Assembly: GCA_021324115.1 (NCBI GenBank)
Contig: JAJPJS010000002.1
Location: 28,613 to 92,612, forward strand
Source of the DNA: Nitrososphaerota archaeon
Lineage (GTDB): Archaea > Thermoproteota > Nitrososphaeria > Conexivisphaerales > DTJL01
DNA: 64,000 nt
Direction of reading: 5' to 3'
Positions 24,991-60,318 of this stretch are shown here, one piece after another. A program made the translations under genes and the position numbers. The notes beneath the pieces are model-generated. The model was not told the origin of the DNA. It searched no databases and was given only the letters and a program-made list of their open reading frames with translations. Within the stretch, counting starts at the first letter, position 1; each line of letters opens with the position of its first letter.

Positions 24991-25097
24991 AGCCCCGGGC
25001 GAGATTTGAACTCGCGGTCTCTTCCTCTTTGAGACATGAACTTACCAAGGAAGCGCATTAGACCTCTATGCTACCTCGCCCTTCTGGGTACCGGGGC
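24991..25097 (-). tRNA. tRNA-Thr (GGT) with canonical intron and an extra 5' insertion
   Basis: 3' half: anticodon stem CTTCC/GGAAG, T stem GCGAG/CTCGC, acceptor CCGGGGC, discriminator T (usual for archaeal Thr). A 16-nt intron at 37/38 (25027-25042) has central helix TTGG/TCAA with bulges TAA and AGA; splicing leaves anticodon GGT. The D arm GCAT-AGAGGTCTA-ATGC is complete, but about 17 nt separate it from the 5' acceptor strand GCCCCGG, and a second copy of GCCCCGG lies 11 bp further upstream (to 25108). This is best read as another, non-canonical intron near position 7-9, with possible pairing GCCC/GGGC; the exact junction is unresolved. Confidence 0.8.
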
Positions 25098-36543: not shown

Positions 36544-36611
36544 TTTGTTATCCTACCTGTGTTCAAAGACTACTAGAAATCTAATATACTCACAATTGTG
36601 TTGATTTTGAT

Positions 36612-36732
36612 GCGGGGGTTCCCGAGCTAGGTCAAAGTTCGTTATGACGAACGATTAAAGGGGGCAGGCTACTGACCCAAACTCAAGATCTGCTGGTGTA
36701 GGCCTTCGTGGGTTCAACTCCCACCCCCCGCA
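36612..36732 (+). tRNA. tRNA-Leu (CAA) with two non-canonical introns
   Basis: Acceptor GCGGGGG/CCCCCGC, T stem GTGGG/CCCAC, class II variable arm, discriminator A. A 23-nt intron sits in the D-loop (36636-36658): central helix GGTC/GATT, bulges AAA and AAA, inner hairpin GTTCGT/ACGAAC, perfect BHB shape. A second 13-nt insert (36668-36680) lies at 30/31; removing it gives anticodon stem GCAGA/TCTGC and loop CTCAAGA (CAA), with near-BHB pairing GGGC/ACCC. Spliced length is 85 nt, the same as tRNA-Leu(CAG) at 56.3 kb. Confidence 0.88.
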
Positions 36733-55578: not shown

Positions 55579-55694
55579 GCCGGGGTAGCTCAGCCTGGTC
55601 AGAGCGCCAGTCTCCATAAATTGGGCGGAACTCATAATCTGGAGATGGTGTCAAAACCAACCAGAAGCCAGGGGTTCGAAACCCCTCCCCGGCA
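55579..55694 (+). tRNA. Elongator tRNA-Met (CAT) with two non-canonical introns
   Basis: Acceptor GCCGGGG/CCCCGGC, D arm GCTC-AGCCTGGTCA-GAGC, T stem AGGGG/CCCCT, discriminator A: elongator Met type. Intron 1 (55611-55629, 19 nt) at 30/31: central helix CGCC/GGCG, bulges AGT and GAA; removal gives stem CCAGA/TCTGG and loop CTCATAA. Intron 2 (55645-55666, 22 nt) in the variable loop: central helix CTGG/CCAG, bulges AGA and AAG, inner TGGT/ACCA; removal gives the 5-nt variable loop AGGCC. The spliced tRNA is 75 nt. No intron at the usual 37/38. Confidence 0.9.
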
Positions 55695-56344: not shown

Positions 56345-56448
56345 TGCGGGGGGTGGGATTTGAACCCACGAACCCCTACGGGATGAGGTCCTGAGCTTCG
56401 TGGCTTGCTTAAGCACTCACGCCTTTGACCAGGCTGGGCGACCCCCGC
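56345..56448 (-). tRNA. tRNA-Leu (CAG) with non-canonical 30/31 intron
   Basis: Acceptor GCGGGGG/CCCCCGC, D stem GCC/GGC, class II variable arm, T stem GTGGG/CCCAC, discriminator A. The 19-nt intron (56397-56415) at 30/31 is a perfect BHB: central helix CGTG/CACG, bulges AGT and AAG, inner hairpin GCTT/AAGC. Splicing gives anticodon stem TGAGG/CCTCA and loop CTCAGGA (CAG). Spliced length 85 nt, no CCA encoded. Confidence 0.92.
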
Positions 56449-60189: not shown

Positions 60190-60318
60190 GCCGGGGTGGC
60201 GGAGTGGCTGTGGTGAAAATAGCCACCATAAAACGCGTCAGCCTCGAGATCATCGATTGTGGGCCAGCAAGCTGATGGGCCCTAGCGGCCCCCATGGGTT
60301 CAAGTCCCATCCCCGGCG
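60190..60318 (+). tRNA. tRNA-Ser (CGA) with D-loop and canonical introns
   Basis: Acceptor GCCGGGG/CCCCGGC, D stem GCG/CGC, anticodon stem TCAGC/GCTGA, long variable arm GGGCC-CTAGC-GGCCC, T stem ATGGG/CCCAT, discriminator G: class II Ser. D-loop intron of 19 nt (60210-60228): central helix GTGG/CCAC, bulges CTG and CAT; splicing gives a 13-nt D-loop, the same length as in both Leu tRNAs. A second 21-nt intron at 37/38 (60249-60269) leaves loop CTCGAGA (CGA). Spliced length 89 nt. Confidence 0.88.

Follow-up and report, generated by a model that had tools for sequence, protein, structure and literature searches.

A tRNA-Leu(CAA) gene with small introns in the D-loop and at position 30/31 in a Nitrososphaerota archaeon

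An interrupted gene and its mature product

A short locus in an archaeal draft genome begins as GCGGGGG and ends as CCCCCGCA, with two inserts in between. Which tRNA does it encode, and where are the inserts bounded? The locus lies at positions 36612-36732 of a 64,000 nt stretch of DNA (the window) from a Nitrososphaerota archaeon (assembly GCA_021324115.1, contig JAJPJS010000002.1, positions 28,613-92,612 of the forward strand); the draft comprises 2.14 Mb in 27 contigs and is 95% complete. The tRNAs that ARAGORN in ordinary mode and Rfam at its gathering score pick out of the window do not include this one. A whole-genome scan gives a weak signal from the 3' part only, and ARAGORN reports no gene in the unspliced precursor.

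An exhaustive search, to which the answer was not supplied, made every excision of one or two introns that has three or more of the four central pairs and scored the remaining cloverleaf. The top-scoring excision removes 36636-36658 and 36668-36680 and gives the anticodon CAA (score 36.7). The runner-up, with a different anticodon, scores 35.9, and the best single-intron solution 33.3. When the interior was shuffled, 0 of 244 sequences reached 36.7 (mean 32.9, sd 1.0, maximum 35.9). The features are as follows.

36580-36590, + strand: TATA-like A/T-rich stretch TCTAATATACT, read by eye; it precedes the mature 5' end by about 22-32 bases
36612-36732, + strand: tRNA-Leu(CAA) gene with two introns, from the sequence read, the exhaustive intron search and orthologues
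36612-36635, + strand: exon 1, positions 1-21 (acceptor 5' strand, D-stem 5' strand, D-loop); acceptor pairs 7/7 with 36725-36731; same layout in the intron-free genes L001-L004
36630-36633, + strand: intron 1 central helix, exon strand GGTC; four pairs with GATT at 36653-36656
36636-36658, + strand: intron 1, 23 nt, D-loop, position 21/22, AGTTCGTTATGACGAACGATTAA; bulge-helix-bulge (BHB) by exhaustive search; orthologues have 14-24 nt introns there
36637-36652, + strand: intron 1 inner hairpin GTTCGT-TATG-ACGAAC; six pairs, probability about 0.97 in the folded precursor
36653-36656, + strand: intron 1 central helix, intron strand GATT; pairs with GGTC and covaries with the exon among relatives
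36659-36667, + strand: exon 2, positions 22-30, AGGGGGCAG, from sequence, intron search and orthologues
36662-36665, + strand: intron 2 central helix, exon strand GGGC; three of four pairs with ACCC at 36675-36678
36668-36680, + strand: intron 2, 13 nt, anticodon stem 30/31, GCTACTGACCCAA; exhaustive search, register unique
36675-36678, + strand: intron 2 central helix, intron strand ACCC; fourth pair C x A
36681-36732, + strand: exon 3, position 31 to discriminator A (anticodon loop CTCAAGA, variable arm, T-arm, acceptor 3' strand)
36684-36686, + strand: anticodon CAA, by ARAGORN on the spliced sequence

Excision of both introns leaves an 85-nt class II tRNA, which includes GGTCAAAGGGGGCAGACTCAAGATCTGC and which ARAGORN names tRNA-Leu(caa); when one intron or neither is taken out, the program reports either nothing or a false tRNA-Ser(act). 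The 85-nt product has what is expected of an archaeal class II tRNA-Leu, i.e. a full cloverleaf, discriminator A and a Leu anticodon, with a variable region of 14 nt. The acceptor stem GCGGGGG/CCCCCGC forms 7/7 pairs, the T-arm GTGGG-TTCAACT-CCCAC 5/5, and the acceptor, anticodon and T stems are all perfect in the two-intron solution. Searched for as an exact pattern, the anticodon loop has a single occurrence in the genome, and the remaining Leu genes carry UAA, GAG, UAG and CAG; this is thus the sole CAA gene found there. The locus is almost certainly a single-copy, presumably essential tRNA-Leu(CAA) gene, with a transcript that would carry two small archaeal introns spliced by endonuclease and RtcB.

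Relatives with and without the introns

Do related organisms place the joins at the same points? An exact 32-base pattern search in named genomes gave no match; the predicted mature sequence was used to search 150 related genomes. The genes L001-L004, from another family of class Nitrososphaeria, are intron-free Leu(CAA) genes that read GGTCAAAGGGGACAGACTCAAGATCTG across both joins and reproduce them exactly, the precise absence by which an archaeal tRNA intron is recognized. Both introns are present in Leu(CAA) of all four genomes of the archaeon's own family and of four genomes of a second family of the order; here the D-loop introns span 14-24 nt and the 30/31 introns 11-19 nt, and their sequences vary. 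Six genomes of a further family have the 30/31 intron alone (11-29 nt). Altogether the 30/31 intron interrupts Leu(CAA) at the same point in 13 relatives, with lengths of 11-29 nt. The class I synthetase gene found near Leu(CAA) here is also its neighbour in two same-family genomes, where Leu(CAA) lies 2-3 kb upstream of it in the opposite orientation. The sequence-only reading had proposed a 13-nt insert at 30/31 and a mature CAA anticodon on a perfect stem; orthologues with and without introns agree with both, as do the exhaustive search for the insert boundaries and ARAGORN for the anticodon.

These comparisons also bear on other readings of the locus. Could it be a decayed tRNA-Leu pseudogene? 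Decay would fit the second splice motif, where one pair is broken, and the silence of ordinary scanners, but the acceptor, anticodon and T stems of the mature form pair perfectly, no other gene for anticodon CAA was found in the genome, the position near the class I synthetase gene is the same in two relatives, and a TATA-like element lies upstream; decay is highly improbable. A tRNA-Ser(ACU), with only the D-loop intron and a canonical 13-nt intron, is scarcely credible. The sequence-only reading had warned that without the second, non-canonical splice the loop would be misread as ACT, and this is what occurs: with the D-loop intron alone removed and introns allowed, ARAGORN returns tRNA-Ser(act) with a false 13-nt intron. 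Intron-free class II orthologues at 92% identity, however, are Leu(CAA), the genome's other Leu genes agree with this locus in discriminator A, acceptor and T-arm, and the two-intron Leu(CAA) solution outscores the Ser reading. An A34 in a Ser(ACU) would also be unexpected in archaea. A second intron shifted to TGACCCAAACTCA (36673-36685), with anticodon ACA, ranks second in the exhaustive search (35.9 vs 36.7) but deserves next to no credence, as it matches no orthologue (all relatives have the 30/31 placement, with CTCAAGA intact), would deprive the genome of a Leu(CAA) gene and would put a Cys anticodon on a Leu body. All three readings were rejected, on orthologues, scores and intact stems.

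Splice motifs and the order of splicing

The tRNA-Leu(CAA) gene with two introns raises the question of how each is recognized. Because AAAG is present at both edges of intron 1, five sliding registers give an identical product; the BHB rule, by which the cut follows the second base of the bulge, places it at 36636-36658. The motif has two 3-nt bulges, AAA and AAA, a 4-bp helix between them in which two of the four pairs are G.T, and an inner hairpin. The outer helix is the D-stem, set off by unpaired D-loop bases, so the motif is not a complete symmetric hBHBh'. The 'full BHB geometry' read earlier thus holds for the 23-nt length, the GGTC/GATT helix, the AAA bulges and the six-pair hairpin, and does not extend to the outer helix. 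Of 56 possible pairs in the D-loop helices of 14 genes, 49 form, the third pair being T-A, C-G or A-T with compensatory exon changes. This pair count was matched by 26 of 2000 partner shuffles, a modest support; the genes are related to one another.

The second motif is relaxed and bulge-helix-loop-like. It has three of four pairs and no stable inner hairpin, whereas the intron strand in relatives (GCCT, GCCC or GTCC) makes 4/4 pairs in every relative examined. Over 16 genes, 63 of 64 pairs form in this helix, and the single failure is the C x A of the tRNA-Leu(CAA) described here, in keeping with the three central pairs (GGGC/ACCC) and relaxed character first read from the sequence. The exon strand GGGC is invariant, so compensation cannot be seen at this helix. 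At 30/31 most introns lack the length for a stable inner hairpin, and bulge-helix-loop describes them better. Folding predicts an alternative hairpin, GGGCAG-GCTA-CTG-A-CCC, at the second motif here.

Is one intron removed before the other? Partition-function folding was carried out at 37 and 60 °C on 12 two-intron genes, with energies that refer to RNA free of protein and modification. In full precursors at 37 °C, the mean D-loop helix probability is 0.08 or less in all 12. With the 30/31 intron removed it climbs in four genes (this one, 0.58; two relatives, 0.57 and 0.83; one Leu(UAA), 0.48) and stays low in the remaining two-intron genes. The 30/31 helix has a probability of 0.1-0.99 in 11 of the 12 full precursors, and removal of the D-loop intron raises it here and in one relative only. 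The suggestion that the second motif forms only after loss of the D-loop intron therefore finds no support in the folding of the 12 genes, where the 30/31 helix is usually present already in the precursor. The reverse order, 30/31 intron first, is weakly favoured by the folding models, and not in all genes. A broader proposal is that the introns are coupled, removal at 30/31 first closing the anticodon stem and freeing GGTC for the D-loop motif, and that the matching Leu(CAA) and Leu(UAA) intron pairs across the order arose by intron exchange between isoacceptor genes; taken together this is doubtful.

What enzymes might act on these motifs? The genome encodes two splicing-endonuclease paralogues and an RtcB ligase. 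The first paralogue has 3p1z_B as its nearest solved chain (E 3e-47); it can be aligned over almost its whole length with the catalytic subunit of 3p1z, and the alignment retains Tyr, His and Lys, which we take to be the catalytic residues. The second aligns with the M. jannaschii enzyme and is without the catalytic His. The RtcB gene (L092:19-1791) lies directly upstream of the second paralogue on the same strand. The gene set for a putative heteromeric splicing endonuclease, of the type able to cut relaxed motifs, is thus present. Such an enzyme would recognize the D-loop BHB and cut AA^A at both ends; it would also recognize the relaxed motif at 30/31, with cuts at AG^G and AA^A, and RtcB would join the three exons into the 85-nt class II tRNA reading UUG. 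Heteromeric endonucleases are the kind described from Thaumarchaeota and Crenarchaeota, in which unusual introns abound (PMC4090602).

Other intron-bearing tRNAs and significance

The same two points are interrupted in the Leu(UAA) gene of this genome, by introns of 18 and 16 nt. In this genome and order Leu(UAA) resembles Leu(CAA) in both intron points, with exon helix strands GGCC and GGGC, whereas intron lengths and sequences differ between the two. In two further families Leu(UAA) has the D-loop intron and lacks that at 30/31. In one relative (L086) Leu(UAA) has no D-loop intron; it has one at 30/31 and, close to the canonical site in the anticodon loop, a further predicted one of 21 nt.

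Introns are predicted in 20 or more of the genome's other tRNA genes, a lower bound because the solver leaves some tRNAs with T-arm introns, or three introns, unresolved. Within the window, two introns each are predicted in a Thr(GGU) tRNA (24991-25097, - strand), a CAU (Met-type) tRNA (55579-55694, + strand) and a Ser(CGA) tRNA (60190-60318, + strand), and one in a Leu(CAG) tRNA (56345-56448, - strand). Elsewhere, an apparent tRNA-Lys(UUU) (L064, G000:C19:133960-134270, minus strand) probably has three introns, one in the T-loop. A tRNA-Trp(CCA) (L066, G000:C19:134850-135130) has two predicted introns; that in the anticodon region is 63 nt long and perhaps carries a C/D-box-like guide, as in other archaea.

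Multiple non-canonical tRNA introns are well documented in archaea, including those in Leu(UAA) of Caldiarchaeum, and the present gene is thus a further example of a known phenomenon. Excerpts of published work describe multiple introns in tRNA-Leu(UAA) of Caldiarchaeum subterraneum and D-arm introns in its tRNAs (PMC3293823), and 107 non-canonical introns of Thaumarchaeota genomes in the tRNAscan-SE 2.0 survey (PMC8450103). As far as these excerpts go, multi-intron tRNAs of Thermoproteales, Thaumarchaeota and Caldiarchaeum likewise have short non-canonical introns, BHB or relaxed motifs and two introns per gene; the tRNA-Leu(CAA) described here differs in isoacceptor and lineage. The pair 21/22 plus 30/31 is not named in the portions of the literature on non-canonical archaeal introns that were consulted, and a literature search found no paper on tRNA introns of Conexivisphaera. 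The split tRNA-Lys(CUU) of Nanoarchaeum and Staphylothermus is also interrupted at 30/31 according to an excerpt (PMC4090602), but its halves are separate genes joined in trans, unlike the short cis intron of Leu(CAA).

What does the gene signify? Ordinary gene finders can miss a needed tRNA or misname it, here yielding nothing or Ser-ACU. As the C x A at 30/31 is limited to this gene among those examined, the set provides a naturally occurring series in which to ask how much relaxation of its motif a heteromeric endonuclease tolerates. Across the order, the paired introns vary in length and sequence, while their insertion points and exon-intron helices persist.
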